A stretch of 64,000 nucleotides of DNA, from the NCBI RefSeq assembly GCF_963678975.1, contig NC_089273.1, positions 23,330,356 through 23,394,355 on the forward strand. Direction: 5' to 3'. Below are positions 7,409-62,540 of this stretch, one piece after another. Within the stretch, counting starts at the first letter, position 1. Each line of letters begins with the position of its first letter. Both the position numbers and the translations under genes were made by a program. The notes beneath the pieces are model-generated. The model searched no databases, was not told where the DNA came from, and saw only the letters and a program-made list of their open reading frames with translations. The stretch comes from Dysidea avara. Its lineage: Eukaryota > Porifera > Demospongiae > Dictyoceratida > Dysideidae.

Positions 7409-9332
7409 TAGGGATGCGCCGATTTTGCCAGAAAAATTTTTGGAAAAATACGTTGGTAAAAGCAAAGAGCAAAATGCTGGAAAAATAGGTGGAAAAGTGG
7501 AAAAATGGGCACCAAGGAATGGTAGCTTAGCACATTTTGTATGAAAAAGATCGAGATACTCTAATAGAACAGTCACGAATGGTATTAGGATAACATGAGC
7601 TCATAGGAAATGGTGACAAAAGATCGAGATATTCTAATAGAGCAGTCACTATGTACAAAATATTCTAATAGATAGGGTCCGCAATCCAAAAAATCAACTT
7701 CTACAAATCAATCCCCCTACCATTGTGGGATGTTCATTGTAGTATCCCATTGCTTGATCCACCATGAAACCGGAGGCACGATTGTTGTCTTCACAGAAAT
7801 ATTGTTTTCAGTATCTCGCAAGATGCAAACTTTACTTTTAAAATTTCGTGCTCCACACAAAGGACCGGATGAAACTTGCTACTTAGCCAAATCGTATCCA
7901 GAGTTGTTGTAGTTGAAAAGTACGCACAGAAATAAGTAAATGATTTGCTGGGTGCCCGGCACAGGGTTGCTTTCTTTGAAAAAACAGACAAAGAAATACG
8001 AAGTCTCGAATTCAAACTACCCTACCACCCAGGGCAAGAGAAGCCAACTCTTCCTCATAGTGTTTCGATACGGTTGGGTGCATAGTCTGTCTATGCTGTT
8101 AGTTTGGAAAAGATCTGAGACTTCTCACCATCTGGGTGACGAGCGTCAAAATTTTCTTCAGCATCAAAGAATTGTGTCGCGCTTTCTAGCCATTTCCAGC
8201 GCTTCTGCAGCCACAACAATCATCAATTATAAACTAAAACTATGGCAAAAGATGTCCCTAAACGTTTGGTAGTAGCGGTTGTCAATTATTATTTCATCCA
8301 CGGCTTCCACGTCTCGCTCTAAGCTATGCATCAAGGGAGACAGCGAAATCGTCCAAATTTGACTTCGCCTCTCACGCTCCACAGCAGCTTCAAATCTTCA
8401 CTAGATCACCCTGCATCACCATTATGCTGCAAAACATCCAAAAAACAAACCGAAAAAAGCACAAAATCTTTCATTTTTGATTCGAGCTGGGTGGAGCTCC
8501 TGGTGAGCTGCTGGTATACTGCATCATATGAAATCACAGAAATACCAACTACTACTACTACCAAACATTTTGATCCATCATTTATCATCATTCTAAACAA
8601 AATTAAGTGACCAGTGTGGCATCAGAAGTACTGGAAAGCGCTTTGGTACCATTGAGAGAATCCCTTGAAATCACGCATGAAAATATTGACGTTCTTCACC
8701 CAGATGGTGAGAAGTCTCAGATCCTTTCCAGACTAACAGCATAGACAGACTATGCATCCAACCTTATCACATCACTATGAGGAAGAGTTGGCTTTTCTTG
8801 TCTTGGCTGGTAGGGCAGTTTTAATTCGAAAATTTGTGTTTCGTTTTCTGCGTTTTGAGAGAAAGCAGCCCTGTGCCGGGAACCCAGTGAATCATTTTCG
8901 TATTACTGTGCGTACTTTTTAACTACATTAACTCTAGATAATACCTAGCTAAGCAGCAGGTTCTATCCTGTTGTTTGTGTGGAGCACGAAATTTTAAAAA
9001 TAATTTTTGCATCTCGCGAAATACTAAAATCGATATTTCTGTGAAGACAACAATCGTGCCTCCGGTTTCATGGTGGATCTAGCAATGGAATACCACAATG
9101 AACATCCCACAATGGTAGGGGGATCGATTTGTAAAAGTTGATTTTTCGGATTGCGGACCCTATAATAGAGCAGTCACACATGCTTGCAAGCTTGAGATAC
9201 TGCAATTAATTCTTACTGATGCTCAGCAAAATAGAAAAAATCTGAGCTAAATATTGAGCAAAATAGGTGAAAAATAAAAGAATTGCTGGAAAGAAAAATA
9301 GGTGGGAAAAAAGCAAAATAGGCTCATCCCTA
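7409..9332. mobile_element. hAT-like TAGGG-family MITE, interrupted by a fold-back element
   Basis: The left end TAGGGATGCGCCGATTTTGC mirrors the right end GCAAAATAGGCTCATCCCTA. The flanks CCTGGAGT (7401-7408) and GCTGGAGT (9333-9340) are an 8-bp target duplication with one mismatch, as expected for hAT. The inside holds several GATACTCTAATAGAGCAGTC-type motifs, one of which is the insertion site of the 7673-9162 element. Sister copies are at 11451, 24415 and 39779. Confidence 0.85.
7673..9162. mobile_element. 1.49-kb fold-back element with arms of about 490 bp
   Basis: The ends TAGGGTCCGCAATCC and GGATTGCGGACCCTA open inverted arms that run to about 8165 and from about 8680, with weaker similarity further inwards. 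The 7-bp repeat TAATAGA flanks it (7666-7672 and 9163-9169). Removing the element and one repeat restores the motif TTCTAATAGAGCAGTCAC. Reading frames such as 7940-8272 lie in the arms and look incidental. No transposase is seen. The superfamily is uncertain because a 7-bp duplication is unusual. Confidence 0.9.
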
Positions 9333-9861
9333 GCTGGAGTTCATCATTTTGTTTGCCTATTTGTTCACTGATTTCTTGTGGCACCTGTAATATGTTTACA
9401 AATTGATGCACAGTCACTGTATGTTAACACACTTTCTGGATGTTGTAAAAATTCTATGTTCTCAGTGACATTGAGACATCCATGCTAAAAAAGTAAATAT
9501 GTGTTTACGTAACTATAAACATTATCTCCTTACAGGTCAAGAACAACTTGGAAGGTTGATGAAGTCAAAGACACCGTGACACAATGTACATTGTATCAAA
9601 GATTCTTGTTAACTGCAGATGATACATCTTACTAGCTAATTCCAGTGAATCTGCATGTAATTATGTAAAAAGACAATGATACAGGCTACTGACCTTACCA
9701 GGCAATATCATTGTGTCCGGCTGCTAACGTCAACTGAAGGCAGACGGACATGATATGTAGCTACGCCATGTTTAAGCTAGGTGGCTTTCCTCCCCTCCCT
9801 CAAGTCTTCAACTTCTTACACACTGACTACTAGTAGCTAGCGGTGGGCTTGGATGGGCTGA

Positions 9862-10236
9862 ATACTGTACGTACCAGTCAGTGATACGACTGAGTCCGCC
9901 GAATTTTATTCTCTTTTCCTGAGTCTTGAACTATTTCTGCCATGTCACAATAAGGCGCCTAAACCCTCACGAGCACTGGTGACTTCCGTTGAAGCCAGTT
10001 TAATTAACCGGTGGGTCACACGAGACGACTCAGATATGAGCCCAAACGTACCTGAAGAAACAATGAACGAGATAGACTCTAGTGAACGTCCAGTAATTAT
10101 TCACGAACAAGTAAACACTTTAGTATCACCTTTTAAGCACTACAATTCCTCAGAGAAGCAAACCGCTTTCAACTACTCAACACGGCTCTGTTGTCAAAGA
10201 AGCCGTTTCTATGGTAATACTCTTCACCCTAAATAA
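9862..10236 (+). CDS. Unrecognised open exon-like frame, about 120 codons
   Basis: One frame stays open from just after a TGA at 9859-9861 to a TAA near 10236. Its last 85 codons, read from a GTG at 9979, have a mixed, protein-like composition (for example SSERPVIIHEQVNTLVSPFK). A possible acceptor, GTACCAG, ends near 9878. There is no ATG near the start, so it would have to be a terminal exon of a plus-strand gene whose earlier exons I could not find; the hAT-like element ending at 9332 lies just upstream. No domain is recognised. It could be a chance open frame in A+T-rich DNA. Confidence 0.3.
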   Translation: MLYVPVSDTTESAEFYSLFLSLELFLPCHNKAPKPSRALVTSVEASLINRWVTRDDSDMSPNVPEETMNEIDSSERPVIIHEQVNTLVSPFKHYNSSEKQTAFNYSTRLCCQRSRFYGNTLHPK

Positions 10237-10724
10237 TGCGCTTGTAATAGAAATGGTATTTAATAATTATACATACGTATTCAAAATATTCTTGACTCTT
10301 GAGTGACAATTCGTCCTCCTGCTTTCGTACTGTCTGTTGCCTTCACTATGTCTTGGTTAGCCTGTAAAATAAAACATGAGTAAATAGCTGCCATTGAAAA
10401 GGAAGCCTAATAATTACTTTACTTTTACATTGAGTGGCTAGAATTGAACCGGCTATAGTTAATGGAGAAAATAACACAGTGAGACAGCTATAACCTGCAT
10501 GCTGGTGGCTCATCATATGTGGCCTCAGCCATACTGGCTCACTGAGTTCACCTTAGCTACTAGCTAGCTGGTAATGGGAACTCTTCAGTTTGGTGCATTC
10601 ACTTACTTGGAGTTCTCTTTACCCTTAGTGGGTTACTGTTACTCTCCTAGTAATCCAAACTCCCTTTTCAGAGTAAAATATTTTACTCCCCATAGTTATT
10701 GTTGCTCCCCTGTTTTAACAGTGT

Positions 10725-10966
10725 AGTTAGTTACAGCTGTTTTGTGACTGCTGTATTCGAGTATCTTGATTGTTTTAATGCAGTACAAGATGAAAGGCAA
10801 AGTGTTACTAAGGGTTTACTAGTTAAAATGGGTGTTAGTTGACTGCACTAAAACTACAGTTGCATTTTAATAATATGTCATTGTAATCTGGGGTTTCTGT
10901 CAAAACCATGGAAACTCACCTACTGTTATCAACAGTATTTGCTTATTCTAACAAAAAGTATTGAAA
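10725..10966. repeat. Segment D, copy 1 (inverted partner at 51848-52297)
   Basis: This matches the reverse complement of 51848-52297 once two insertions there are removed (hAT-like 51977-52167 and the start of 52306). Shared stretches include the tracts around CATGGAAACT and ACTAGTTAAAATGGGTGTTA. It abuts the palindromic element that follows, as in copy 2, so the pair moved or was duplicated as a unit. Confidence 0.8.
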
Positions 10967-12028
10967 ATCCCATCCAAAAACAGCTTGTAGCTGTAAAAAG
11001 TGTGCGTCCAAGTAAAGCAGAGTTAACTGCAGCAAAAGGTAATGATATCATCATGCGGCCATGTGCAAGGTGTGCAAGTCATAAAATTAATATTAGCTAA
11101 TCACATAATACAATATTATTGTTAAAGTGTTAATGAGAACTGTGTGATGCTAGTTTTTAAGTGTGAGAGCATCTTCATAAATGCCACACAAATTTGATTT
11201 TCAATAAAGCAATGGGTATAGATTCTCTGATAACAATTATTAGTTTGAGTTTAGCCACCTTTCCTGTGTATGGCAATGCTATGAACAAAGGAAAGGTGGC
11301 CAAACTCAAACTATTTATTGCTATCAGAGAATCTATACACAATGCTTTATTGAGAATCAAATTTGAGTGGCATTTATGAAGATGCTCACACACTTAAAAC
11401 ACTAGCATCACATAGTTCTTAACACTTTAACAATAATATTGTATTATCTGTAGGATTGAGCTAATTGTGCTTTGAAAATAGCCTATTATGCTTTTGAGCA
11501 GTGCTAAAAAACCAGCCTATTACGCTCAAAATTACAATCTCAAAACCAAGATTATACTCGAGGGCTGATTGTTTTATTTGAGTATATCTGCATTTCCTGA
11601 ATGCTGTATTAGAGTAAGTGCCTGTTCTATTAGAGTATCTCGATCTTATTACCATAAAGTGTGAATAATCAGTCAAGAAATAGTGAAACTAATAGCACTG
11701 CAAGATTTTGATATAAAATGTAGTAATAATGTGCAGTGTGTTCATGCTGTGCAGCATTTTTGGCACGCATTACGCGTTTTAAATTAAATTCTTGAAAATT
11801 GTCCTATTATGCTGGCATAATGCTTGATGCTTTTGCCAGCCTATTATGCTCAAAATTATGCTGGCATAATTGGTGAAAGCCTAATTATCTGATTAGCTAA
11901 TATTAATTTTACAACTTGCACACCTCGCACATGACCGCATGAGGATATCATTACTTTTTGTCGCAGTTAACTGTTTTACTTAGACGTGCATTTTTTTTTA
12001 CAGCTACAAGCTGTTTCTGGATGGGATT
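10967..12028. mobile_element. Palindromic element (family C, copy 1), interrupted
   Basis: The ends ATCCCATCCAAAAACAGCTT and its complement lead into arms of about 300 bp meeting near 11275, so both strands read almost the same. This explains the mirrored frames at 11175-11393 and 11194-11379, which are not genes. The right arm is split by the insert at 11451-11883. Without that insert and one TSD the length is close to that of copy 2 at 51238-51847 (610 bp). Relatives lie at 34487-34930 and 40265-40395. Confidence 0.9.
11451..11883. mobile_element. hAT-like TAGG-family MITE with 8-bp TSD
   Basis: ATTATCTG is duplicated exactly at 11443-11450 and 11884-11891. The ends TAGGATTGAGC and GGTGAAAGCCTA are weak inverted repeats. 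The paralog at about 51700 keeps the uninserted site (GTATTATCTGATTAGC), which proves the insertion. The inside has CTGTTCTATTAGAGTATCTC, the recurrent motif. Confidence 0.92.
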
Positions 12029-14326: not shown

Positions 14327-15961
14327 CAGAGGCGTAGCTAAGGGGGGCAAGGGGGGGGGGAATTTGCCACTCGATCACCAAGTGTTTTTTGTTTTTAACT
14401 TCCATCACAGTATTACAAATGACTATAAATTATGTGCGCTACTACGCAGTATCGCCAGGGGTTGCTAGTGAATGCGCACACAACATTCACCTCGTTCGTG
14501 AATCAAGCCACCGAATTAAAATATTAGAGACAAACTTCTATATTTAGCCTAGATTTCTCACGTGATAAAACAATTTTGAACCTACCAAATAGTGACCCGC
14601 TCGAAGTGACCTCGCAGGACTGAGTCACAACTCACAAATGATAAAGGAGACCAGATTACGCTACGAACCTACTGCCTAGGAGGTGATGAAGTGTTATTAT
14701 TATTATTATTATTATTGTATAATGTACAAACCTCAATCACAAGTATAATGTACATGATTAGTTAACAAACTAAAACGTTAATAAACTTAATTACATGTAA
14801 CTATAATAGTAAAGATTTAAAATTATCGACATTATCAGTTTCCGTAGGTGATTCCGTAGTACCCTTTTCTGTTACACCGTTTCAGTCAGTCAGTAAGTCA
14901 AGTCATTAAGTCTAAGTCCCTGAAATTAGGTTAGGTAATCCTAAGGCTGCAGCACATGTTGCTGTCAGACCTTCAGTGCTGGTCACTGTGAAGTGCTTAT
15001 AATAATAATAATAATAATAATAGTCTAATTACTCTAGGGAAGAATGATTGCATGTAGGAATCAATTCTTGAGGGTAAATGTAGGTATTTGCTGCTACTAC
15101 TACGGGTGGTGCTTGGGACTTTATGTGTTAAATGTACCCGGCAAGATAATTGAGTACACTGGATCTTCGTATGGCAGTGGCATGCCAGTCAAATATTTTT
15201 TTACTTTGACATCAGGCGGATCAGTAGCAAAGTTACAAGTTCAGCTTGAACAAGACCTGTGCTAAGCTGGGATTTCGTGCAATATGTAACATTTGAATTT
15301 CGTCGGTTGAAGTGAGTGAACACGTAATCCTCTCCACAGTGTGCTAGGACTGCAGCTGTGGCTACTTGTATTTCAATGGCGGATCCAGGATGGGGCAAAT
15401 TCCCCCCCCCCCCCCCCCCCCCCCTTCAAGAAATTGCATACAAGATCAAGATACTCTAATAGAGCAGTCAGTTACTCTAATAAAGCAGTCACAATGTTCA
15501 TGAGGCAGTGTAGCTTACCTATGAAGCTATAAATAGGATTTTATTTACATAACAGACGTGATATATTTGGTAAAGGATCACTAGCTATTATTGTTGTGAC
15601 CTTTTTTGTTTTTTTTTTTGGTCTTCAACTGTTTTTCAGCAAGGTGCCCCCCCTCTTTCCAAACTCTGGATCCGCCCCTGTATTTGCCCTAAAAATAACA
15701 ACGATTGTGGATGAATTTGTTGGAGTACAGTTTTGGAACGTGCGATGATGCTTGACGAATGTACCTCCATTGGCATTGATAGCAATCAGCATACTGAAAT
15801 AGTTACGTAGCTAGTTATGTAAGCTGTAATAATACAACACCGTATGTTGGCTAGCCCACCATTGGGTCATTAGCCTTTTTTTGGAATCATAAATGATTTT
15901 GAGTATTTGATGGGGGGGGCTTGCCTGCCCCTCCGTCACCTTCTGGCTAGCTACGCCCCTG
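14327..15961. mobile_element. hAT-like CAGRGGCGTAGCTA element inside the minisatellite
   Basis: The ends CAGAGGCGTAGCTAAGG and CTAGCTACGCCCCTG are inverted repeats. TCTCTACA is duplicated at 14319-14326 and 15962-15969, and the target is the minisatellite unit itself. The core matches 42458-43358 in inverted orientation. It also contains (TTA)n and (ATA)n tracts at about 14694-14717 and 15001-15022 and a nested element at 15374-15680. The frame at 15044-15265 has no support. Confidence 0.92.
15374..15680. mobile_element. CAGGGGCGGATCC-family MITE (5-bp TSD), nested
   Basis: Left end CAATGGCGGATCCAGGA, right end GGATCCGCCCCTG, flanked by TATTT at 15369-15373 and 15681-15685. It holds a long C homopolymer and two tandem copies of the ACTCTAATAGAGCAGTCA motif. 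A hAT-like TIR with a 5-bp duplication recalls the hAT5 type; that assignment is from memory. Confidence 0.88.
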
Positions 15962-15969
15962 TCTCTACA

Positions 15970-16633: not shown

Positions 16634-19250
16634 AGTTCGTGTACTTTTTTCCAAATCCATTAATTGATTATAAGTTACGTGCAATTGGCACATTATAGTG
16701 TAGCCTAAGCTAACAGAGATTCCTCAGTTTAAAAGGTTAACTCATTAACCAGATATCTTAATGCAATATAAATTTGTAATCTATGATGAAGACTGTGTTT
16801 TTATTCTGATTTGTACATGCACAAAATAATAAGGTATAGGATATATTAATTCCTAGTCTACTCAGTGTTTCAGCCACCATCGTCACACTTTGTGCCATTG
16901 CTGAAAACACAGTGCTATAAAAGCTAGCTACCTGTCAGAAGAATTACTGATTGTGCACCTATCATACAGGAGACAGTGTTGATGATGGCACAGGAGACTT
17001 GAAGAAGAACACGATGTCTTAGGTGTTTATTCTAACAGAAGGAAAAGAATGAAACTCTATGATACATGTTATAAGAATGGTAACTGTTAGTGTTATAATT
17101 CCTGTAGAGTCCATTTTAACAAAAAAAAGAAAGATGAACGATGCATACATCAAGCATGTGCATTATAGGTGTAGAGTTGTCTAGCAGAATAGTTAGTGAA
17201 GAGATAGTTATACATTGTAGCTGTAGTGCTATTATTGTAGTGATGATGCTTACAACACCTTTGTATAAACGTACGAGTTGCATGTATGAACATGCAAGGC
17301 TGCATGCAGCAGCAACTGTGTGAGTTGGTGTTAATCAAGCTAAATAGGAGGAGATGGCTAGGCTTGGCCGAAGTCTTCCTATGCTGGTGTCTGCATGTAC
17401 AAATCACAATGTCACTATACTAGTGGCCAGTGGCGTAGCCAGTCTTACATGATTACCAGGGATTTGGCAGTCATACCCATGCAGGACTACTTTAAACTGG
17501 CATATTGAGTTCCAATTGCCAGGACTTAGACTGAGCTCTAGTGCTGGAAAGCCTAGATGTAGCTTGCTAGCAGCAGTGTGTCATAAAGTGGAACACCATA
17601 AAGTGGAACACCATAGGTATAGTCAACAAATTTAAGTCTGGTTAGCATGTGTTCATAAATACTTGCAACTGTCAATGTCACTAACTGATCGGAGAATGTG
17701 CTAGAGTAAGAACACAGTAGCTAGTTACAGTGACATAAGCACAGTAGCACATAATCCTCCCATATAAGACTGTCAGGCTTCACACCCTTAAGTTGTTTAT
17801 GACATGGATACAATATGGGAGGGTTGTTGATGATATGTGGTTAGACCACAAAATATTTTTAAATGGTAGGGTTGTAATAAACACCCCACCCAACCTTTTC
17901 TGTATGTGAAAAGCAGCCATAATATCAGCGCTACCAATCTTCCCCATATAATGGACAAACCAAGCACTCACTGTGATAGCTAGGAAGAGAATAAATGGAT
18001 GCCTTGCATGCGCGCTTGAACGGCTTCTCGTAGTGAACAGGGGAAACTTACTAGAGACGCTATTATGGCGATCTTGTAAGGTAAAAGAGTGCTTCACAAC
18101 TTCAATCTGCCATCTATTAACGTTATATATACTATAGTCGAACAATACGCATCCCTGAGCACACAAGATCCCGTAATTTTGTTCTTCTACGGCTTCTTCC
18201 GTATACGGAACAGAAGGAAATGGCGAAGAAGAACTTAGAAATTTATCGAGGTGGAGGCCGGTTAGCGATCTGTGGAGTACAGGCTAATTAATGGGTCATG
18301 GACACGCAGAAGGACTCAGTGAGTAAGGCTGTGTAATTTTTATCGCGAAAAATGGAAGCCTTGGGCTGTACACGAGTGAAACAAAATAATAATAATATTA
18401 TGAATAATAATATGAACAATTCGCGTAAAATTCGCAATTTTTGAATGTTTCCAAATTTCGTCTAGACCATTTTTACCGCTATATCACAATTTTTCTGAGG
18501 TCAGTATTTGATAATAAGCCTTCTGAGGGTTGTTTTATGCTCGAGTCTGCTTTCAAAGGCTGGTTTTAGGTGACTACTCTATTAGGATTTTCAAAAGTTC
18601 CACTGCGATCCCTATTATGACCCCACTATCGTGGTTCATGATAACGGAGTAAATAATGCTCTAATAGTCTGACTGTTCTAATAGGATATCTCGATCTCGC
18701 ATTTGCTACACAGAGTTGGCTTTCGAAACATAACTCAGTGGTTTGCAATCCGATTCTTCTGTACTACTACAAGGACTTTTTATGATGATTATTCCAGCTA
18801 TACACCGATTTTCAGCTTATTGCTCCACGCGATTTACCTACTACTGTAATAGGCGCAAAAACAGATACTTATTTTATTCATGAAAATCGATCGTGTAATT
18901 GTGACTTTTTTTTTTACCCGGGCTTGATGGACAGCCCTTGCCTACCACCCCCAACACATCGTGTAATTGTGACACAGGTTGGGGTTTGTGTCATATCTCC
19001 ATAGTCTTTATCTCGATTTCTTTCAAACCACCAAATGGCACTCTTACGATGGTTATACTGCACCTAGATAGCAATTTTCAACTCATTCCATGACGCTGTT
19101 TACCCTGTAAGCGTGACAACAAATCGATCATTTTTTACGTGAATAATTGTCCATAAATCCTGAACCTTTTATTTATTTGTAAAGTACAGGACTCAGAATT
19201 GAATATATGGTACATGTAAGCATGCAAGTGATTAATTAAATAAGTAAAAT
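16634..19250. other. Gene-poor stretch with degraded repeats
   Basis: No exon chain found. Two motif copies of the ACTCTAATAGAGCAGTCA type lie at about 18570 and 18660-18697, so a decayed MITE is likely there. A direct repeat of CATAAAGTGGAACAC sits near 17583. TTCCGTATACGGAA at about 18198 is a 14-bp palindrome in a short CpG-rich patch. The frames at 17150-17407 and 17780-18166 are unsupported. Confidence 0.4.
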
Positions 19251-21015: not shown

Positions 21016-21435
21016 CAAGGGCGGATTTATGGGGGATGCTTGGGGTGCTGTAGCACCCCCTTTAAAATTTTACCATGTACAAGCTAGAAAACCTCTAGAA
21101 ATTGCAGTATAGATGCAATTGTATTTTATACGTACGTATGGGCAATGAAAAGATGGAAAGGATAATCCTTACTTAGAATTACTAAAAGGGGTTAAAATTG
21201 TACTTTTGGTGTGACACTTAACCTAAAAGCTGCTAAAAATTGAAATACTCTAACAGAACAGTCAACCACTCTAATAGAACATCCATAATAATGTTTTTCA
21301 AAAAGTTTCCAGTGTGTTTTCTTGACCTGTGTGTGTTTTCTTGACCTGTGCACTGCTATCTTATCATTGCTACTAACATCCTGCCATATACTAATCACTT
21401 TCTGAGAATAACTTCTGTCAAATAGTTTAATGTTA
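21016..21435. mobile_element. CAAGGGCGGAT-family element, left-end fragment
   Basis: It begins CAAGGGCGGATTTATGGGGG and matches the left part of 30416-32135 (GATGGAAAG..., the two CTCTAATAGAACA motifs near 21241-21290, and TCTGTCAAATAGTTTAA). Similarity ends at about 21435 and no right terminus or TSD is found, so the copy is truncated. Confidence 0.65.
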
Positions 21436-24414: not shown

Positions 24415-24893
24415 TAGGGACCAGTCTATTTTGCTTTTTTTCCCACCTATTTTTCTTTCCAGCAATTCTTTTATTTTTCACCTATTATGCTCCATATTTT
24501 GCTCAAGAATTATAAATTTTGCTCAGCACTGATTTTTGTTAATTGAATATTTCCAATTGCAAACCTACAGTTTTGCTTTAAAGTGACTGTTCTATTAGAG
24601 TATCTCGATCAGCAATTACTTCTAACATGTAAAGCAAGAAGCTAGCTAATATCGCTTAACATCTGTGACTGTTTTATTAGGGTACCTCGATTGTCACTTG
24701 TTGTTCCAGTAACAATTAGCTATGCATTGTCGATATAATAGCGCGTCTGACTGTTCTATTAAAATATCTCGATCTTTTAAGCAATTTTTGTGTCCACTTC
24801 ACTAAATTTGCACCTATTATGCCAGCATTTCTCTTATTGCTTTTACCCACCCATTATGCCAAAAATTTGGCTGGCGAAATCGACGGGTCCCTA
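24415..24893. mobile_element. hAT-like TAGGG-family MITE with exact 8-bp TSD
   Basis: The ends TAGGGACCAGTCTATTTTGC and GCGAAATCGACGGGTCCCTA are inverted repeats. CAAACAGG is duplicated at 24407-24414 and 24894-24901. The partner at about 50640 has the empty site (GATGCCTGCTTGTCACTCTG). The inside carries three CTGTTCTATTAGAGTATCTCG motifs at about 24587, 24668 and 24750. Confidence 0.95.
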
Positions 24894-28920: not shown

Positions 28921-29028
28921 ACTTCGAAACTGAATGCAGGGAAACACGCATCCCTAGGGATATATGTGTGCGGGCCTGCGGGGAACGCCTTAACTGGGGA
29001 ACATAATACCCGGGGAAGCAGGAGCGGA

Positions 29029-29915
29029 TCTAGGATTTATAAAAGGGGGGGGGCTAACTCAAGGTACTAATCTCTTGGGTAGAGGTGTGTGAAGCACACG
29101 TAGAGGTGTGCGAATGAACTAGGGGGTCTGGGGGCATGTCCCCCAGGAAAAATGTGAAAAATAGATGCTAAAATACTGCAATTTGGAGACATTTCCACAT
29201 AAAATTCATAATATTTTCTGCCTGTAGATATTTTATATACTGCCTTTAGATTATAGGTATGGCTCTCTGACTCTGAAGTATTTTGCTAATGGAAAAGTTT
29301 GGGTAGGTACAGGCAACCAAGTACATGATGCACCCCTCTCACAATTGCACAACACTGAATAGGTGCATGCTAGAATAATAATGTTGAAAGTGGAAAATTT
29401 TGAAATTTGAATAATAAAAGATTGAATCTGAGAGCATTTTCAATGGAAATTGTGTACCTGAATTTAAGTATTGTCATACATATTAACTACACAAGTAGAT
29501 GAATGAAGCCCTTTAAACAGACCAATGCACTTCATTGTATGTATAGGTGCAGGTAGATTTGGAAAAATTCCATAACAGAACCAACTACATGCTTCCAGTG
29601 AATGTTCTATTAGAGTAGTTAGCTGACTGCTCTATTAGAGTAGTTAGCTGACTGCTCTATTAGAGTATCTTGATCTTGTACGCCTCCAATGCTGATCTGG
29701 GTCCTTGTTGCATTAACTTTAGCATAAATCCACTGATAATACCTTGGAAAGACGTTTATAAGGTGGTTTTATGAGTACTTGTATTAGTGATCATATAATT
29801 ATGCTAAGACAAATTTTCATTATAATACTCAGCATATTGATCAAGTAAAGCCTAAATATGAAGGGGGGGCTTCAGCCCCCCAAAGCCCCCTCCCCCCCCC
29901 CTGGATCTGCCCCTG
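29029..29915. mobile_element. CAGGGGCGGATCC-family element, 5-bp TSD GGAAG, nested
   Basis: Left end CAGGAGCGGATCTAGGA, right end CTGGATCTGCCCCTG. GGAAG is duplicated at 29024-29028 and 29916-29920. It holds three tandem copies of a 25-bp unit containing CTGCTCTATTAGAGTA at about 29600-29672. Confidence 0.92.
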
Positions 29916-30038: not shown

Positions 30039-33000
30039 TAGGGGTGGATTGAGGGAGGGGACTAAGGGGGCTGTAGCCCCCCCCCTTTCCTTTATAAGTT
30101 AGTACTTGGAAAATAAAACCCTAAATCTTCTATGTGTATCAAAAGCAGACTTGTTTCAGGAACCATGCATCACTACCAACACAAATAATGTCTATGTAAC
30201 TATATCTATTGTTCAACTCTGTTCCAATGTCTATGTAACTATATCTATTGTTCAACTCTGTTCCAGGAGAACATAGCTTCCTTTTCCTCAAGAGCCCTTC
30301 AAAAACAAATTTTGATTGTGGGTTGCATCTCCAGTTACAAAAGTATTAATTGTGGATTTTGTTCTATTCAGATGATTAGCAGTGTTTTCCACTATGGCTA
30401 TAAGACAAGGGCGGATTTAGGGGGAAGCTTTGGGGGCATGCAGCACCCCCCTCCAAAACTTTAGAATGAGCAAGCTAGGAAGCTTCTAGAAGCTGTAGTA
30501 CAGGCACAGTTGCATTTTATACACATGTATGGACAATGAAAAGATGGAAAGAGCACACTGCTAAAAGGTTCTTAGTTTACTAATTTGTTAAGATGCCTTA
30601 CTGTAGTTATACTGATAGTAAAGTGTCAGTAAACTTAAGTATATGGAACATAATTATTTTACTAAGTTTTAAACTCTCAGTAAAACATCAGTGAATGCGG
30701 GTTTACTGAAAAACTACTAAAATAACAAACAATTAACTGTTCCATATACTGGGGATATACCACTGTAGTAAACTAAGATACTTCAAGCAGTGTCAAGAGG
30801 AATAGCTAATCTTATCCAAGAATTGCTAAAAGTGGTTCAAAATTATACTTTTGGAGTAAGTCTTACCTTAGAAGCTGCTAAAATCGAAATACTCTAATAG
30901 AACAGTCAACTACTCTAATAGAACATCCATCATTAAAACTATAATTTTCAAGTAGTTACCAGTGTGTAAGCTGAAATTAAACCTATTCTTCTAGACCTGT
31001 GCACTGCTACCCTCACCATTGTACCAAACATCCTACCATATACCAATCACTCTAAAGATTTAATGTCCTGAAACATAATTAATTGAAAATCTATTCTGAA
31101 AACAACTTTTTCTGTCAAATAGTTTAAGTTTTTTAGGCTCTAATACAAACTTGATTCTTGGGTCAGTGAAATGCTTCACTTGCAAGTAAAACAATATAGT
31201 TTTATAATTATTATAGTGAATTCATAACATATATAAAGTTCACAAGGCTGCAACATCTGAGAGCTGCTTTTTCCCCTTACTTAATCAAATCCCATGCTAC
31301 AGTTATCTAAATATAGCAGCTTCTAAGAGTTCGCACTATCAAATCCCTTGAAGCTCAACTTTAAGCATAGATCCAATCCTGTGTTTTAAATATTCTTCTT
31401 GACCTTACATTCAATTAACTATACACTCTTTATTCTCTTTGACAAGCCACTATTATGCAGTTTCTTAAAATCCAATAACAAGAAACATTGTATAGTTCTG
31501 TTTTTTAATTAAATTACTTCCAACTGAACTCATTCATCTTGTACCCACATTTGGTTAAAAATAGCCTCTAGATTCAATCTTGTGATAGCAATTTTCCAAA
31601 AATCACCAGGGAGTATGCCACCAGAGCCCCCTAGCTGGAGAATTTTATGCATGCTCAGTGCATGTGCACTCCACTCACTGATGAGTCTACTTGCCCTCTC
31701 CACTCATCTCTACTGTTAATTTGGACAGCTAGTGTAGTTTGAGCCATGAGACTGTAAAATAATTTCAAAACACTAGATTTGATCATGTGCAGCTGATACC
31801 CATACGTTTCCACTACTGGTTCTTTAAAATATTAGTCTAAGATTGAATTTTAGCTATTGGCTGTGCCATTTATAGTTACATTGACAAACTGTAGGGGAAT
31901 AATGGTATCACATAAACAAAGTGACGTTATTTTTCACTCAAAATCACTACGTAATTCAATCTCAGTAGGCCAAATTTGCAAAATTTTCCTGTGGGGGCAT
32001 GTCCCCAGATCCCCTAGATAGAGCATGCTCTGCATGCTGAGTGTGCTTTGCACACTAGTTGTATCATGATCAACTTTCTTGCCACATAAATGTCCATGTT
32101 AACACCCCCCTTCTGAAATCCTAGATCTGCCCCTATAAGAGGTAATTATAGTGTAGTTTTATATTTCAAAAAATGTTAGTTGGTTTAATTGGTTAGATTT
32201 ATCAGCTTCAGTATAATATGTAGCTAGCTAGTTTACCAACTCAGCCATTAAGCAAACTGTAGTCTTTGGTGATTTGCAATCTCATAAGGCAGCTATAGCA
32301 TATTCACCCACTTTTGTCTTTGAATGTAAAATCTGTTTCAGTTACCTTCTGATATGGCCCCATGCTGCAGGTTATGGAGCTGGCATTTGTAGCTAGCCTA
32401 TAGTTCAGTCTTCAAAACCCAGCAGATATAATAAGTTGACTATCACAACAACAAATTCAGAGAGCCATAAAATTTAATGCAAATATAGCTGCACTTTGCT
32501 AAGGATTGCCAGTGGACTAGCTAATTGCTACTAGTACCCTTCACTGCAGTCTGCTTTTCAGTACACTTTATTAGTGTTAAGGCTAACAAAGTGTCACTAG
32601 GCTAAGGAGCATGCATACTAATAATTGTGTCGTTGAACACCACTACTACTTAGCTATACATGTTTCTGCCTCACAGAATTAGCTGATTAGAGCATGGCTA
32701 AGAGGAGCTGATGCAATATGACATATATATAACTAACTGTATCTAAATGCTTGGTAGCTGCACACGAAAAGATTATCATGCATGCATGATAGCTATACTC
32801 AATGCATATTGCAATCAGTCTTGATTTAATGGAAAAGTAAAATTTTGATGATATATAATAAACTGAAATTCCATTATTTTCCACTGAAAAACCTGCTAAA
32901 AATATTTTCAATTCACCTTTAGAGGGCCTAATTTTCAAAAATTTCCTTGGTGGGGCATGCTCCTAAACCCCTTAGGTGTACATGCCTAGGTGCACATGCT

Positions 33001-39756: not shown

Positions 39757-39778
39757 ATGCTTTACAGCTAGGCATGAG

Positions 39779-40196
39779 GTTATTATGCTCCAAAAATTGA
39801 GCATTATGCTTTTGAGCAGTGCTCAAAAAATCACCTATTATGCTTTTGAGAATTGCCCATTATTCCCAAAATTATGCCACCATAATTGGCTAATAATGCC
39901 AGCTTATTGCTGTATCAGGCAATTTTCATTGATGTTTAAGCTTCAAATAGTCTTGAATTCTTTAGCTGGTTGCTATATTAGAGTATTTCATTTCAATGTG
40001 ACTGCTTTATTAGAGTAAAATGATATTCAGTGACTGCTCTATTAGAATATCTTAATATTTTGTAAAGGAATTGTGTAATCTGAAGATTTTCCTACTGTTA
40101 AAGCTTTATAATCACCTCAAAATGCTGGCATAATTCCTGATTCCCACACATACCTATTATGCCCAAAATTATGCAAGCATAATCGCTGCATCCCTA
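39779..40196. mobile_element. hAT-like TAGG-family MITE with exact 8-bp TSD
   Basis: The ends TAGGCATGAGGTTATTATGC and GCATAATCGCTGCATCCCTA are inverted repeats. TTTACAGC is duplicated at 39771-39778 and 40197-40204. It contains CTGCTTTATTAGAGTA and CTGCTCTATTAGAATATC motifs. It has landed 15 bp beyond the end of the preceding element. Confidence 0.93.
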
Positions 40197-43358: not shown

Positions 43359-45036
43359 TGTACAATCGATTTCAGATTACTTTCTGCATGCAATTGAACA
43401 ATTTACAATGTGATTGTTCGAACATATGAGCGAATTGTTTGCAACCTAGCTCCTTTACTTATACAACTAAATACTAGTGCTAGCACAATAAATACTCACC
43501 CCTTTAATGTTAAACAATGCCAGGAGTGTACATGTAAATACTGCAAGTAGACATTCATATTATCACATTTGCAAGTCGTGTGTGAATTATTCAAAAGCAA
43601 TCTGAAATCAACTGTGCTAGTACTACCTGAGTGTGTACTGGAGTCTGTTCTGACAGTGTTGTCACAGTGCTTGCTACAATTTGTAACCACAAACAAAGTA
43701 ATTACAATAGTTGCTTATTTTAAGTTCATCAATTCCAGGGGCGTATCCAGGATATTTCCAAAGTGGCTTCCAGATTTATCAGTGAGGTACAGAGGTCTGG
43801 GGCTGTGCTCCCAGTCACTGACAGATTTAGAGAGTGCTTCAAATTTACTAGATTTTTGATTTCATGAATAATAACTATTTCAATTTGTACTTGGTTCCTC
43901 ATGATTTGTGGCTGGTCAGATATATATTGCAGTGACCAAATACATTTCCAATTATAGGTACTTTAAATTTCAACATTTTTTAACACCCATTTTTAAAATT
44001 GTATTCTGTTATGAATATTGTATTAGAGTACTTTTGACTGCTCTATTAGAGTACGTCAGACTTTTCTGTTAGAGTATCTCCATTTTCTCTAAAGGTTTTT
44101 CAATACATAGCCTTAATCCACGTTTGAGGACTAATTGTAAGTTTCCTATTAAACTGTAGCTATATTGCATGTTCATTAATAACACATTGGTAACTATTAA
44201 ACTGTGTACGTGCGTGTGTGCTTGTGTGGCTCACTACTGATAGGCTGGAGTGCTGCACCAGCATAATGGTAGCATATTAGGTGGATGTTATGAATACTAC
44301 TGATACTCTCTAATAGAGCAGTCAGTGGAAAATGCAATCAGGCACTCCAATGCATTGTCCAAAGCTTACTCTCTAATAGAACAGTCACTTTGTAGTCAAT
44401 TACTCTAATTGAGCAATCACTGATTAAAACTTTGAAAGATAATTGTAAGAAATGTTTTTGAGCACATTGGGAACACTGAAGAGCATAACAGGCAAAAATT
44501 TCATGAAATTTTACCCAGCCCTCAATCCAGGTCAGTCCTTAAAATGGGTCAGATCTGGATTACCTGCCCAAGTGACCCACTGAGCTCAGACAAGATGTGA
44601 CGTAGATGACCTTATTTCAACCATGTGTGTATATGCTGTGCACGCATGTAGTATGTAGAACTGAGCCAATAATTTCCAAAACATTTGATTATGTGTCATA
44701 CACTGTTCCTAATCAGGGACGAAACTAGCACTTTAGTGATGCTAGTATACCCAAAGTGTCCTAATTTTATAGGTCTAAATAACTACAAATGAAACTATTA
44801 ACCGTGTAAAGGTACATGTCCTGATTTCAAGTACTGTATCGTCAATTATGGCCCGGACACTTATTATGTTCAGGCAAGTGTTTACCCTAGCCACAAGACT
44901 GGTGACTATAATTTACAAGACCAAAAATCATATTCCTTGGGATCAACTTGAGATATTCTCTTCTTGATATATTCCACATAGATTTCAAGTTTAAAGGAAT
45001 GCTGTAAAATGCTTTTGCTTCACTGTTTTGTACTAG
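43359..45036. other. Repeat debris, no gene seen
   Basis: A left terminus CAGGGGCGTATCCAGGATAT starts at 43737 without a matching right end. CTGCTCTATTAGAGTA motifs occur at 44020-44085 and 44305-44410. A GGGTCA-rich fragment (44520-44605) resembles 54490-54600, and CAGGGACGAAACTAG at 44716 is another hAT-type left end. Borders are not resolved. Confidence 0.45.
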
Positions 45037-45765: not shown

Positions 45766-46566
45766 TGAATAGTTTTCACAACTGCTTGACATGTAGGTGA
45801 TGAGTTACAAACTTTGATCAGACTCTAGAGTCAGGTATGTTCAATCCAGTTGGTAGTAACAAGCTGCTCGCCTCATTTACCCTGCAACATTACTAATAAG
45901 TACACTACTAATAAGTACAAGTACACAAATATTGGCTTTCGCTGATAGTGAGGAAGATGATATAACATGATATGCCTTTAGTAATGTTTGACATTGTTTG
46001 TATTTTGTACAAGCAATGCTTCCTTTTTATCATGTCACCTTACAGGACATACACAGTAATTTTGAAAAGAGTTTTCTCTACAGCTAAGTGACTTATATTA
46101 GAGTATTATAATTACTTGACTGCTTTATTAGAGTTTCTCACCAAAAAATATTCTTCAGAACAAGCATTGCTATTGTACGACAAACATTATTTACAAGGCA
46201 AAGGCTCCTGTTTCATGAAAGATCCATGATTTCTGTATACCTGCGGTTTGAATTTTTGTAAAGGGGTTTCCTGAAACTTGCCCCTGCCTTGGAAGTACAA
46301 AACTCATGTAACCTAGTAGATATTTTCTGTTACATACAAGATTGTGTGTAAGAAACTAAAAGTATGCACTGGTCACTCTGAACTATTTAGCTTTATTTCA
46401 CTTTTAAACCATCAATCATACATGTATATGCAAGGGAGTATCATGCTGGCCTGTGTTGCACACTACATTTGAACCCTCCGTATGCCTTGAGATTTTGACT
46501 CATTGCTACTAGTAACAATATTGTGTAGTCTCAAGTCTCATCTTGATTGTATATTGACTTTGGTAG

Positions 46567-48013: not shown

Positions 48014-49018
48014 AGTGTTGGGAAAGTTACTTTGTAAAAGTAACTAATTACATATTACTTGCAACTGAGCTATTTAGTTACAGTTACATATTACCCATAA
48101 ACTAAACTAACTGTAATAATATTACATATTATGTTACTTTGTGTCCACAGCCCAGGGGCGGATCCAGGAGCTGGCTAGGGGAGGGGCACAAACAGGGTAA
48201 GTTGTAGGTGGTTGCATGCATGGGGAGAACCATATTCTCTATAGTTCAGTGCTGCTTTTTTAAAGCAGCAAATAATCACCTCTTAGTGGTGTCTCACTGT
48301 TGATATTTGCCATTTTGGCCTTTTCAGATGGTTGTGAAGTCTTAAAACTATTTAAAAGGCTCTGAATGTCTTAAATAACAGCAACACGATAATTATTTTT
48401 AGAGGCGCTTAGTACGCACGAAGGTGCTGGGTGACTATTTTACAATTAGTTTGACTTCGGTTCGCTTTGGTCTCAGGTGAATTTGTAATAAATGCTAGTA
48501 AAATTTGCATATTTTCGTAAGTTTTAAACTGATTTCGGTTGGCCTGACATAAAATTTACTAGCTGTTTTAATCAGAAGCATGGCTGGCTCCTCCACAAGG
48601 TGGAGGGGGGGGGGGGCATTTGCCCCAAATGCCCCATCCTGGATCCGCCATTGCAGCCTTAAGCTGTCACGTGTGAAACTACCACTTTATCATGTGACAT
48701 GATTGTGTTGTTGGACAATGTGCAAATCTTGGTTATAAGTAAGAAGCTGGTGAATAAGCTTTATTCGGTAGGCTTCGTTACTTTGTTGTGGCTATGCGTT
48801 ACTCAGAGGATAACTAACAAGATTAGTAACTTTGTTACTTGTAGTAATAATATTACATAATATTAGACTCGTCACAGTAACTATATTACTTAGGTAATGC
48901 GTTACATTTGTAAGTAAAGTAACTTGAGTTACATTACCCGTTTTTATAGCGTATTTCGTTATATTACTTAGTTACCACAAAAGTATTAATATTACGTAAT
49001 GCGTTACTCCCAACACTG
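48014..49018. mobile_element. hAT-like CAGTGTTGGG element, nested
   Basis: The ends AGTGTTGGGAAAGTTACTTT and CCCAACACTG match the 23199-23711 family. TTCATGTA is duplicated at 48006-48013 and 49019-49026. It is itself interrupted by 48153-48653. Confidence 0.92.
48153..48653. mobile_element. CAGGGGCGGATCC element with 5-bp TSD, nested at the third level
   Basis: The ends CAGGGGCGGATCCAGGAGC and CCTGGATCCGCCATTG are inverted repeats. CAGCC is duplicated at 48148-48152 and 48654-48658. The sister copy of the host at about 23565 has the empty site (GCTTAAGGCTGTGGACA). Confidence 0.95.
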
Positions 49019-51105: not shown

Positions 51106-51237
51106 ACAGTTGTGATGGAAATAAACTTAATTCATAGGTTACTACGTCACTATCGCATTTTTATAGTCAGAATTTTATTGTTAATATCACAAGCAATTAA
51201 TGTGATGTATTTTATTATGTAACATGTATCCCATCCA

Positions 51238-51847: not shown

Positions 51848-52297
51848 TCAATACTTTTTGTTAGAATAAGCAATGCACTGTTGATAACAGTAGGTGAGTC
51901 AGTAGTTTCCATGGTTTTGACAGAAACCCCAGATTACAGTGACAGAATATTAAAATATAACTGTAATTTTAGTGGCCAGGGCCGCCCACATTGGGGGTAA
52001 CTGGGGTATTTTTCCCCCTACCACAGCCTGAAAGGGGCCACTTGAATACCTGTTTAAAGAAAGATCGATATACTCTAATAGAGCAGTCAGGATCTAGACC
52101 CTTCCTTGCCCCTGGGCCCCTCTTTAACTCTTTTCCCTGGGCCCTCTAATTTCTCTGGACGGCCCTGTTAGTGGCATGCAACTGCAGTCAACTAACACCC
52201 ATTTTAACTAGTAAACCCTTAACAACACTTTGCCTTTCATCTTGTACTGCATTGAAACGATCAAGATACTCTATTAGAGCAGTCACAAAACAGCTGT
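51848..52297. repeat. Segment D, copy 2 (inverted partner 10725-10966)
   Basis: Matches the reverse complement of 10725-10966 with the insert 51977-52167 removed. It ends in ACTCTATTAGAGCAGTCACA, another copy of the recurrent motif. Confidence 0.8.
51977..52167. mobile_element. 191-bp hAT-like CAGGGCC MITE
   Basis: The ends CAGGGCCGCCCACA and CTGGACGGCCCTG are inverted repeats. TTAGTGGC is duplicated at 51969-51976 and 52168-52175. The empty site is in copy 1 of segment D at about 10850. One TACTCTAATAGAGCAGTCA motif is inside. Confidence 0.93.
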
Positions 52298-52305
52298 AAC
52301 ACAGC

Positions 52306-52644
52306 CATAGGCGGCGGAAAGGGGGGGGGGGGGGGGGCTTAGCCCCCCCTCAGAATGATATCACACCGAAATTATCTTTCTTGGAGTGGGGCTGAAAACC
52401 GTGATAAAGATCGAGATACTCTAATAGAGCAGTCACTCTAATAAAGTATTCAGTGTGTAGCGAGCTATGTAAGGATTTTTATGTAGTTTATCAGCTAGAA
52501 ATGGTAGCTGGTGAGGTGGAAGCTCTTGTCAGTTGGTTGCGACCTTTTTTTTTTTTTTTTTTTTTTGGTCTCACCTTACTAAACTATAGAAATAAGTCTG
52601 GGTCAGCCCAGCCCCCCTCATATCAACTACTTGCTCCACCGCTG
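52306..52644. mobile_element. hAT-like element with exact 8-bp TSD AACACAGC
   Basis: Left end CATAGGCGGCGGAAAG, right end CTTGCTCCACCGCTG. AACACAGC lies at 52298-52305 and 52645-52652. It carries long G and T homopolymers and a GATACTCTAATAGAGCAGTC motif at about 52415. Confidence 0.9.
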
Positions 52645-52652: not shown

Positions 52653-54097
52653 AATCAATATTTAGCATAGTTACAACTTCTGCTTAGCATCGGATTGTAT
52701 AGTTTAAATTACTAGCTACTTACAGACTTTACAATATAAAAATATGGCACTTGTAGAAATGTGACTGTTTTATTAGAGTATCTCGATCTACTTCAAGCAT
52801 TGACTAATTCAAGTGAAGAAGCTACGCCCCTGCCAAGAGATCTTGTGAAATGAAATGAGAAAAGGCAAGTATGTACAGAGACAATAGAGGGGCGCGTAAT
52901 TATGTCCTGTTGTAAATAAACGCCTTTAAAATTTATATTACTACTAAATAAACGCACCAGAATAGGCTTGTGTGGCTGTTGTCTCCAAGGTTGTCTCATT
53001 ATTTGTCTTTTCGTGTTGAAGGGATTTAGTCGCAATTGGTGAGTTTAACTATACATGTATTTGTGTTGTAAAACTTAATTGTAAAAAGGCGATTAGCACA
53101 TATCATGATAAACATGTATTTGTCACAGTAGAGTCTCTCACGAAGTCACGATTATTATGAGACATTGGACCAGGGTAAAAAATTTACTGCTATATTTAGA
53201 GGTTGTAGCGTTTGTATATCTTAGTATCTTAATAAATAATCCCCCATGATCACTAATCACTAATAGTACAGTGAAAACTGGTCATTATTCAGGCCGTAGG
53301 GACAAAATTTTCTAACCTTGCCTTTTAAAGAGGTGGCTGCATTATGCGGCCTTAAAAAAAGGTAAGAAGCATGCTGTTCTAACTGGCTATAGAGATGGAT
53401 TTAGTGTATGACAGCGTATGAGACAGTGAGTGCTGGCAGCAAGGGGGCAGCCAATCTGTTAGAGCACCAAAAGCACTGCTTCAGACATAGGCAGTTGACT
53501 GTCAGCCCCAAGTGTAAAAAGTTTCACTGTTGGTCCTTATAAGCTCCTGATGAAGAAAGTGATGAAGTCATTATCCATAGGATATATTTTTCAGAGTATC
53601 CATTTCAGTTCTACAATATAGTAGCCAAGCATAAGATGAACATAACACAGCATTCCAGTAGTTTAGTGGTGACCACAACACTGCCTGAGTTAAACTGTGG
53701 TGAGATTTGAGACTACCAGAAGCCCTGGAATGTCTTCAACACATGAAATACCAAATATCTAATGCCTGGCTTTCATCCACAGTGGACCTGTCTTGGTGGC
53801 CACTTGTACAGAAGGGAAACAGCTAGTTGCCACACCCCTTAATTATCAATTTGTAAAATCGTTAGCAAAATTGTGTGTGCGAGCAAGTGCGATGTGGCAG
53901 TGCCGTGTATATGGTTGCTGCCTAGCAGTGACACATCACGAGTATTGAAGTCACAATGCTTTACTGTATCATCCATCTAAATACAATCTCTGAATGTGTC
54001 ATTTTGTGTAGAGAGCAATCTTCCACAAGAAGTGACCTGCAGGTTTCAGTGTATATTGTTAACCATTAATATTGTTCACAATATTGTGAACTATATG
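52653..54097. other. Mostly unassigned; possible untranslated exon near 53034
   Basis: A motif copy sits at 52763-52790. TTTAGTCGCAATTG|GTGAGTTT at about 53038 is a fair donor. MITE fragments (CCTGTCTTGGTGGCCAC at about 53788) account for the most open part. No gene model holds up. Confidence 0.35.
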
Positions 54098-61014: not shown

Positions 61015-61430
61015 CTAGTCTCACGTGGCCAGACCGCTATTTTTGTGCAGGGGCTTATCGATTGGAGATTATAAGTGCCTGCACGAAAAGGGTCTGGTCC
61101 AGTTTGCATTCACAGAGTCAACAACATGGTGTTGGATGTTTATTATTTATTTATTTATTTAATGCTTTATGGTGTAAACAGAAAACACCAAAGGACTGCT
61201 GATTGGGTCACGTCACTTAAAGTCACTACATTATTAACATACCCGTTTGATGTTATTAGATAATTAATAATTCTGAATGTAAAATGATGTATCCATGGTC
61301 AACGACACTCCAGGTGTTGACGAACGTGCTGAGACCTATACGAACTGGACCAGACCCTTTTCGGTGTGGACGCTTATAATCTCTAATCGATAAGCCCCTG
61401 CGCGAAAAAAGGTTTGGCCACATGAGACTA
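61015..61430. mobile_element. Palindromic MITE with 8-bp TSD AACAGTTC
   Basis: CTAGTCTCACGTGGCCAGAC at the left and GGCCACATGAGACTA at the right open arms of about 100 bp that share GGGGCTTATCGATTGGAGAT and CTGGACCAGACCC. AACAGTTC is duplicated at 61007-61014 and 61431-61438. A (TTTA)n tract lies at about 61141-61160. Frames in this interval are by-products. Confidence 0.92.
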
Positions 61431-61438
61431 AACAGTTC

Positions 61439-62540
61439 ATGTTGATTCACCTTAGCCAAAGAGTTTGGGGGTGCCCAGTGGAATTATTAACATTAATAAT
61501 AATATTGCCTATTCATCAAAACATCACTATGTCTTGCGACAACATTCCATCATTAGTGTTATTACATGCTGTAGTATCCCATTGGTGAGTACCACAGGTA
61601 CATGTGGGGGGAGGGGAGTGGGCGGCTGGGGAAGTAATTGCTAACCATCCTTTGGTGTCAGTAAGTGTGTGCACCTTCACATATGTAAACTAGTCCCCCT
61701 GAAATTTGTGCACCATTGTGCAATGCTTTAATTGTAAAATAATATGAAGGTATATATTATAATACACTGAAGTTCAGACCTGAGAGCAAAACAGAAAAAA
61801 AGAAAGGCCTTACCAATTTTAGAGCTAGTGGGGTAGCTTTCTTAACCGATTCTTCCCCCAATCAATTTAGTACTGCTCTACCGAAAGAGCACAGAATGAT
61901 TAGTGAATACTCGAATATTTCTTTGTGATGAATGCTCTAGTGAATGTTCTAGTATAGTACATTAATCTTGAAGCTAACAAGGTACACTATTCCCAGAAAT
62001 AATTCTAACAAGGTATACTTTGTGTACTCCTGTATACCCTCAATTTGAGCTCTGCCGTTATGCTAGTATGTTCACATTGGAGCTGTGTTACACATTGTTA
62101 TTCACATGTAAACAGTTAAGTTTTAGTGAGTCTATCTAAACATTGATGCGATGGTGACAAAAAGGAAATAAAGAATAGAATAATGGTGGCCTTACAGGGG
62201 AGCCTTATGCAATTACTTATCGAAACTTCAATTCAGACAATTCCAAAATTGATTGCTCTATTAGAGTAGTGAGTGTTCTATTGAGGAAGTTGAAAAATTA
62301 ATTTTTTTGCTGTTCGTAATACACTGATTTGAGCTGATATTGCGCAAATTTTCAGAGCTATGATATCCGACACACCTGCTGGTCCCCAAGGGCTTGGATA
62401 ATCGAGATTCTGCCGTGTACATGCTTGCAATTCTGTTTTTATTGGATGTAAATTATATATGACAGCATTTGTATGGCATAGTATACTTTTTAACAATACA
62501 AAAAAATTTGCTTGGTATCAATGGATTGTATAATATTTTT
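61439..62540. other. Unassigned stretch with MITE fragments
   Basis: A motif pair (GCTCTATTAGAGTAGTGAGT) lies at 62255-62280. GGATAATCGAGATTCTGCCG at 62396 is typical of a Tc1/pogo-like MITE end. No gene is supported. Confidence 0.4.

Follow-up and report, generated by a model that had tools for sequence, protein, structure and literature searches.

A directional 29-bp sequence block shared by several hAT-type MITE families in the sponge Dysidea avara

Introduction

Why should transposable elements with unrelated ends carry the same short internal sequence? The question is raised by a 64-kb stretch of the genome of the sponge Dysidea avara (contig NC_089273.1, positions 23,330,356 to 23,394,355 of the forward strand), hereafter the window, to which all motif counts refer unless stated otherwise. 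A preliminary description had reported one motif in miniature inverted-repeat transposable elements (MITEs) of several kinds and had offered four readings of it. We find that the shared motif is real, and that a well-bounded 29-bp module is common to several hAT-type MITE families; its function is putative. Judging from sequence comparison, we tentatively favor the view that a directional 29-bp module may have passed between hAT-type MITE families and been kept for aiding their spread via a common putative binding protein.

Results

Abundance of the motif

Allowing up to three mismatches, the 20-base motif matched 24 times, against a mean of 0.01 and a largest count of 1 in 100 dinucleotide shuffles, and the 11-base core matched 37 times with at most one mismatch, against 1.24 expected. 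Scanning with a 19-position matrix built from motif copies (TACTCTAATAGAGCAGTCA) at a threshold of 13 bits returned 41 matches. Top scores in 12 first-order Markov controls ranged from 9.5 to 16.0; 13 bits was reached in six of them and 18.3 bits in none. For statistics we kept 37 of the 41, the lowest scoring 18.3 bits, and left out a split copy at 9158 (22.0 bits) and matches at 47440 (18.8), 61941 (20.7) and 63426 (19.4). Leaving out the last three was a judgement: their scores exceed the controls too, and they may be real. Each of the 21 positions in the preliminary description has a copy within about 35 bases, and others had been overlooked, for example at 10745 and 34263.

Fully bounded carrier elements

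Both ends and a target site duplication (TSD) were assigned to eight block-bearing elements: four with TAGGG ends (8-bp TSD), two with CAGGGGCGGATCC ends (5 bp), one with CAGGGCC ends (8 bp) and the element at 52306-52644 (8 bp).

7409..9332, plus strand: A1, TAGGG-ended hAT-type MITE; TSD CCTGGAGT/GCTGGAGT, 7 of 8 bases
7547..7575, plus strand: A1 block copy 1, 1 mismatch
7620..7648, plus strand: A1 block copy 2, 1 mismatch
7661..7672, plus strand: A1 third motif copy, left half, interrupted by nested transposon
7673..9162, no strand assigned: transposon with terminal inverted repeats (TIRs) nested in the A1 third copy; TIR TAGGGTCCGCAATCC, 7-bp TSD TAATAGA
9163..9176, plus strand: A1 third motif copy, right half
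11451..11883, minus strand: C1, TAGG MITE; TSD ATTATCTG (plus strand); three motif copies
11566..11647, minus strand: C1 motif array, three copies, spacing 21 and 32
15374..15680, plus strand: D1, CAGGGGCGGATCC-type element; 5-bp TSD TATTT
15442..15491, plus strand: D1 block and second core, spacing 21
24415..24893, minus strand: A2, TAGGG MITE; TSD CAAACAGG; three motif copies
24584..24776, minus strand: A2 motif array, three copies, spacing 82 and 82
29019..29915, minus strand: E1, CAGGGGCGGATCC-type element; 5-bp TSD GGAAG
29599..29677, minus strand: E1 block and two further cores, spacing 25 and 25; six-base spacers identical
39769..40196, minus strand: C2, TAGGG MITE; TSD TTTACAGC (plus strand); three motif copies
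39967..40059, minus strand: C2 motif array, three copies, spacing 32 and 32
51977..52167, plus strand: CAGGGCC hAT-type MITE; TSD TTAGTGGC; one block, 52061-52089
52306..52644, plus strand: H1; weakly matching ends CATAGGCGGCGG/CAGCGGTGGAGC, 8-bp TSD AACACAGC
52407-52435, plus strand: H1 block, exact over 29 bp; second core at 52434

Terminal repeats of hAT elements start C/T-A-N-N-G, and most carrier ends fit this pattern, exceptions including C1 (TAGGA...) and E1 (CAGGA...). The 8-bp TSD of hAT elements is exact in A2, C1, C2, 51977-52167 and 52306-52644 and matches at 7 of 8 bases in A1, in keeping with what had been proposed for the TAGGG elements. The 5-bp TSD proposed for CAGGGGCGGATCC elements was likewise borne out in D1 and E1 and recurs in a motif-free element at 48153-48653. 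Elements with 5-bp TSDs form a described hAT group, hAT5, according to the portion of the source available (PMC12730594). H1 may be a relative of D1, as a GACC-(T)n-GGTC stretch is common to both. The Rfam scan of the window gave no matches.

Every one of the eight bounded elements holds a single array in a single direction, starting at least 68 bp from the nearest end. The distance is 68-156 bp in seven (78 bp in 51977-52167) and 238 bp in E1. A1 is 427 bp long, not counting the nested element and one TSD copy. That nested transposon (1490 bp, inverted arms of about 485 bp) is the single case of insertion into a motif copy, and the supposedly separate copy at 9163 proved to be half a motif: the insertion had cut one copy in two, duplicating TAATAGA, and left the right half at that position. 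Near 10846 lies an empty counterpart of element 51977-52167, and C1 occupies a gap in the alignment of repeat family B (B1 and B2, below); the block therefore travels with elements.

The remaining copies lie in partly bounded or unassigned elements.

10745..10773, minus strand: B1, block of repeat family B, 5 mismatches; absent from the earlier list
18571..18698, minus strand: G, two weaker copies, of which the first has the prefix, with 1 mismatch in 10
21016..21399, plus strand: F1, left end CAAGGGCGGATTT, right end not found; cores at 21246 and 21267
30406..31051, plus strand: F2, relative of F1, right end not found; cores at 30890 and 30911
34263..34281, plus strand: M, one weaker core
44012..44076, minus strand: I1, array of three cores with both spacings 23; lies 276 bp inward of a CAGGGGCGTATCC end at 43736, no second end found
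44306..44419, plus strand: I2, array of three cores with spacings of 63 and 32; neither element end located
46117..46135, minus strand: J, one core without prefix
52257..52285, plus strand: B2, block of repeat family B
52762..52832, minus strand: H2, with its block (52762-52790) 42 bp inward of a CAGGGGCGTAGC end; no second end located
62250..62268, minus strand: K, one core without prefix

One end of CAGGGGCG type was found for each of F1, F2, I1 and H2; the limits of family B, I2, G, J, K and M were sought and could not be fixed.

Extent of the shared block

The shared block, AAGATCGAGATACTCTAATAGAGCAGTCA, is 29 bp long; similarity across families is confined to it and drops to background level on both sides. 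A ten-base prefix, AAGATCGAGA, precedes the 19-bp core in the first copy of most arrays and is mostly lacking in later copies, such that some copies comprise the block followed by further cores and some the core alone. Among the 19 first copies, the prefix has at most two mismatches in 12, three in three, and at least four in I2, J, K and M. When 14 chosen first copies (H1 treated as a separate family, and without B1, I1, J, K and M) were compared in 79 cross-family pairs, identity was high from position -10 to +18 and about 0.27 beyond. A comparison of 62 cross-family pairs of 13 copies, with H1 counted among the 5-bp elements and I2 omitted, gave 0.857 for the block versus 0.261 and 0.283 for the 30 bases upstream and downstream, random 30-mers giving 0.265. 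Flank identity exceeded 0.5 in four of these 62 pairs, three of them involving C1, in which a second core likewise follows 21 bases on. Taking in all 19 first copies (153 pairs) weakened the prefix, with columns at 0.37-0.88 (core 0.47-1.0; outside 0.22-0.37), and the block limits held. The claim of one motif inside elements with unrelated ends was thus upheld, in that only the 29-bp block is similar across differently labelled families.

Because the block is long and exact, a separate origin in each family is unlikely, and exchange between families or common descent of their interiors is therefore needed. The differing ends and TSD lengths point towards separate transposases or, failing that, towards distinct ways of recognizing the ends.

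Independence of the cases

Array direction is the same relative to the two distinguishable ends in all four TAGGG elements, and the array starts 117-138 bp from the left end in three of them (A1, A2 and C2) and 236 bp from it in C1. These patterns suggest that the array is probably ancestral within the TAGGG family, so the earlier list of positions overstates independence; we estimate three to five independent acquisitions rather than twenty. Descent of all bearers from one ancestral MITE, which would have undone the idea of a shared function, was not seen: ends, TSD lengths and spacers differ.

Direction, spacing and mismatches within the motif

All 12 arrays of at least two copies are unidirectional, counting the adjoining and oppositely directed I1/I2 and H1/H2 as separate elements; the H1/H2 split is backed by the bounds of H1, and the I1/I2 split is provisional. 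Direct pairs spaced 22-25 bp, as first proposed, capture part of the pattern: 8 of 19 spacings fall at 21-25 bp, and the rest are 17, 31 (the distance to the split copy, entered by hand), 32 (four times), 63, 73, 82 (twice) and 99. Near self-complementarity had been presented as a key feature of the motif, a view we set aside. The perfect 11-base dyad is intact in 9 of 37 copies, which rules out the palindrome as the conserved feature; in 19 of 37, position 2 can pair with position 12.

Mismatches number 31 in the right dyad arm (five positions), 12 in the left arm and 19 in CAGTCA (six positions). By position over the 37 copies they are uneven, with none at 6, 11, 14 and 17 and many at 10, 12 and 15 (chi-square 93, 18 degrees of freedom; 56.5 with 17 degrees of freedom when position 12 is omitted). 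Such unevenness fits a putative binding site with fixed and tolerant bases. A coding role was also considered and rejected, as many spacings are not multiples of three and no open reading frame (ORF) among the 8 of 10 scanned had a Pfam match above the cut-off.

Conservation of the block relative to its surroundings

In ungapped columns of the A1/A2 alignment, the three blocks are 93, 76 and 76% identical and the outer 100-110 bp 76 and 87%, versus 34% for the first spacer and 57% for the region after the third block. The retention of ends and blocks, and not of spacers, suggests that the block may matter for element spread. For F1/F2, the 41-base window over the motif pair ranks best, with 5 of 227 windows as good, itself included. 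C1 and C2 gave no copy-by-copy alignment.

Relatives in a metagenome-assembled genome

Among prokaryote genome contigs, the exact 19-mer was found at five loci (L001-L005), against about seven by chance arithmetic; viral contigs held none, and the prefix pattern occurred in them at seven loci, none continuing into the full core. L002-L005 were taken for chance rather than relatives, since blastn against the window was empty save for 29 bases over the motif in L004 (93%, E 2e-4). In L001, a contig of the metagenome-assembled genome (MAG) SP12ARB1, bacterial sequence adjoins AT-rich eukaryote-like DNA; the name SP12ARB1 occurs twice in a Lamellodysidea sponge microbiome paper (PMC7313196). This MAG holds four matches with up to three mismatches and none to the reversed pattern. 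With at most one mismatch, it alone matched among the 394 genomes of its family, the 393 others having none; the reversed control pattern matched once, in one other genome of the family.

Three motif contigs of the MAG have low-GC parts resembling host DNA, which we infer to be sponge DNA. The AT-rich DNA in SP12ARB1 is likely sponge host contamination, one contig being apparently chimeric. AT-rich, eukaryote-like sequence, joined to or binned with bacterial contigs, spans about 12240-13370 of L010 (contig 94 of MAG G001), 4000-10836 of L011 and about 1-1000 of L012. The L012 block with its prefix has 4 mismatches in 29. L011 holds an F-element relative. With the motif masked, its flanks compared with F2 beat 300 of 300 shuffles on both sides, scoring 35 upstream (shuffle maximum 34) and 49 downstream (maximum 32), and compared with F1 they beat 299 of 300 upstream. 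In the F1/F2/L011 alignment, 4 of 317 windows, one of them the motif window, reach the conservation of the motif, a figure that partly reflects ascertainment.

Other repeats in the window

Further repeats were noted in the window.

12044-14260: large array with a 31-bp repeat unit, in which a 67-nt two-unit reference was counted 49 times
15962-16370: stretch similar to the 31-bp repeat array
23215-26267 and 47717-51229: inverted copies of a several-kb repeat, pieces 87-96% alike, interrupted by different insertions and usable as empty-site controls
35162-35452: 97-bp unit in three tandem copies, 91-98% alike
51228-51846: near-perfect palindrome, 298-bp arms 99% complementary and 23 bases apart; related to 10967-11450
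56949-60227: array of about 20 units with TTACCTTGTTACATGGTTACCTAATATAACCATG, spacing mostly 123-146 bp
56964-57334: inverted first part of the 56949-60227 array, arms 98% complementary

Discussion

A shared module and how it may act

The four readings offered at the outset fared unequally: a common binding protein is best supported, and a shared autonomous partner is disfavored by the differing TSD lengths and ends. In the mechanism we propose, the module would move between families by template switching during gap repair; alternatively, one element would insert into another and then be lost. One sequence-specific DNA-binding protein, either a host factor or the product of an autonomous element, would bind the arrayed sites, and the bound protein would aid mobilization in a role like that of an internal transposition enhancer. 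Elements bearing the block would multiply better, and the block would be retained. A bolder version holds that several sponge hAT-type lineages with different ends and TSDs share an orientation-specific internal transposition enhancer served by one factor, with families competing or co-ordinated through it, as a DNA-transposon counterpart of the conserved domains of short interspersed elements (SINEs). As a conjecture from sequence patterns, we regard this version as unlikely.

Several observations weigh against retention for a function. Comparing 19-base windows, 78 of 484 are as good as the motif in A1/A2 (62 of them at the ends) and 25 of 249 in F1/F2. The motif of family B (0.84) is less conserved than its flanks (0.94), with 99 of 100 windows as good. 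Because the copies, L011 included, were found by motif search, their conservation is partly ascertainment. The downstream flank of F1 does not match L011 when the motif is masked, 265 of 300 shuffles being as good. Mismatch unevenness could arise in part from old subfamily differences, and helical phasing of the spacings gave p of about 0.02 at 10.5 bp, uncorrected, and was stronger at 10. Neither a transposase nor an autonomous hAT5 copy was found in the window, where 8 of 10 ORFs of at least 110 amino acids were scanned and none of the eight had a Pfam match above the cut-off. Motif-free relatives belong here as well. A complete CAGGGGCGGATCC element (48153..48653, plus strand, 5-bp TSD CAGCC) lacks the motif, as do the CAGGGGCGGATCC-type ends at 30039, 32135 and 33169 and four of six CAGGGGCGTAGC-type ends (at most one mismatch), each within about 450 bp inside. 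An unbiased scan for hAT-like ends with a TSD gave five candidates (none in six controls), of which two carry the motif. The B1/B2 pair and the motif-free relatives thus speak against a strict need for the block: it is frequent and not obligatory, given motif-free elements and ends and the two motif-bearing candidates among five. One of the three motif-free candidates is part of a palindrome, and a hAT-like candidate at 23189-23711, with CAGTGTTGGG ends and a TSD of 7 of 8 bases, is without the motif.

Much of this evidence also suits the most durable rival, a functionless passenger spread by recombination or nested insertion and still recognizable since its copies are young. Motif-free relatives and the lack of extra conservation in B1/B2 are as this account would have them, and the blocks of A1, D1, E1, 51977-52167 and H1 differ from the consensus at 0-1 positions, as recent spread would give. 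Set against it are the near-background identity of the A1/A2 first spacer beside blocks at 76-93%, the place of the motif among the best windows of F2 and its L011 relative (partly ascertainment), and the strongly uneven mismatch positions. On balance we hold the passenger account to be somewhat unlikely.

It is decidedly unlikely that the block is instead a site for a host transcription or chromatin factor, with MITEs that carry it being favored or merely spreading it. Directional arrays of 19-29 bp with fixed and tolerant positions do resemble the long site of a multi-finger protein, but no genes are callable in the window (none of eight ORFs with Pfam matches above the cut-off). MITEs that spread a transcription factor site are usually of one family per motif, whereas several end types carry this block. 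The parts of the literature available to us do discuss plant MITEs carrying transcription factor sites, and the likeness is that MITEs carry the same regulatory motif through a genome.

A 29-bp piece that itself inserts into MITEs would account for the sharp limits on both sides and for near-identical blocks in elements with different ends. We judge such a mobile unit very improbable, however, because inspected copies show no target duplication by eye and the arrays of the four TAGGG elements share one direction relative to the ends; nor did a copy pair differing by just the 29 bp turn up, although no dedicated search was made.

A target or source of small RNAs is highly improbable. Guide piRNAs (PIWI-interacting RNAs) would fit a 29-base length and a U start, here on the other strand opposite the conserved final A, which is present in 18 of the 19 first copies. 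Against this, later array copies keep mainly the 19-bp core, position 12, within the would-be seed, is a base other than G in 17 of 37 copies, and folding is ordinary, with z below -2 in one of eight arrays (E1, whose units are near-identical in tandem).

Scarcely credible, finally, are ordinary subterminal repeats of the kind that hAT transposases bind near element ends (PMC3143072, in the part available): the 68-156 bp that separate most arrays from an end are not far in absolute terms, and distance alone leaves a subterminal role possible because the elements are short, but each bounded element holds one directional array of the 29-bp block, in place of the subterminal repeats first supposed, and the block is common to elements whose ends differ, whereas reported hAT transposase sites are element-specific and at both ends.

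Relation to known systems

SINEs carry an RNA polymerase III head and a tail of the long interspersed element type. No SINE was seen here: the eight bounded carriers have TIRs and TSDs. SINE domains nonetheless offer the nearest precedent, by analogy, for a shared internal piece. CORE, V and Deu are highly conserved SINE domains, and the V domain reached the MITE MER6 by SINE insertion, according to the accessible sections of one account (PMC6887750). As there, a short conserved stretch is shared by mobile families with otherwise unrelated parts, and its function is described as not established; the block differs in being 29 bp long, arrayed and directional.

Transposition enhancers of the P element and Sleeping Beauty type are also alike in having repeated sites away from the tips, which assist the transposase (PMC3688188, as far as the available text goes); any enhancer role here is putative. 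Those enhancers are described there for individual elements, whereas this block is common to families with different ends. Herves, a hAT element, resembles the carriers in holding repeated short motifs, its subterminal transposase-binding repeat being CGATTCAT; in the excerpt available (PMC3143072) such repeats are short, at both ends and specific to one element, unlike the single directional array of a 29-bp block common to several families.

In open-licence PubMed Central literature, the 16-base core is absent as text and no description of MITE families sharing interiors was found; the sponge and MITE papers there do not describe the block in their titles or the opening lines of their abstracts.

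Implications

With 37 kept copies in 64 kb, the block would be a very common long motif genome-wide, if the window is typical. If it is functional, MITE families would be defined not by their ends alone but also by a swappable internal part that they share, and the activity of many families could come under the joint control of one protein, from the host or from an element. The block would then give a handle on a question that is open for SINEs: what makes conserved internal domains appear repeatedly among non-autonomous elements.

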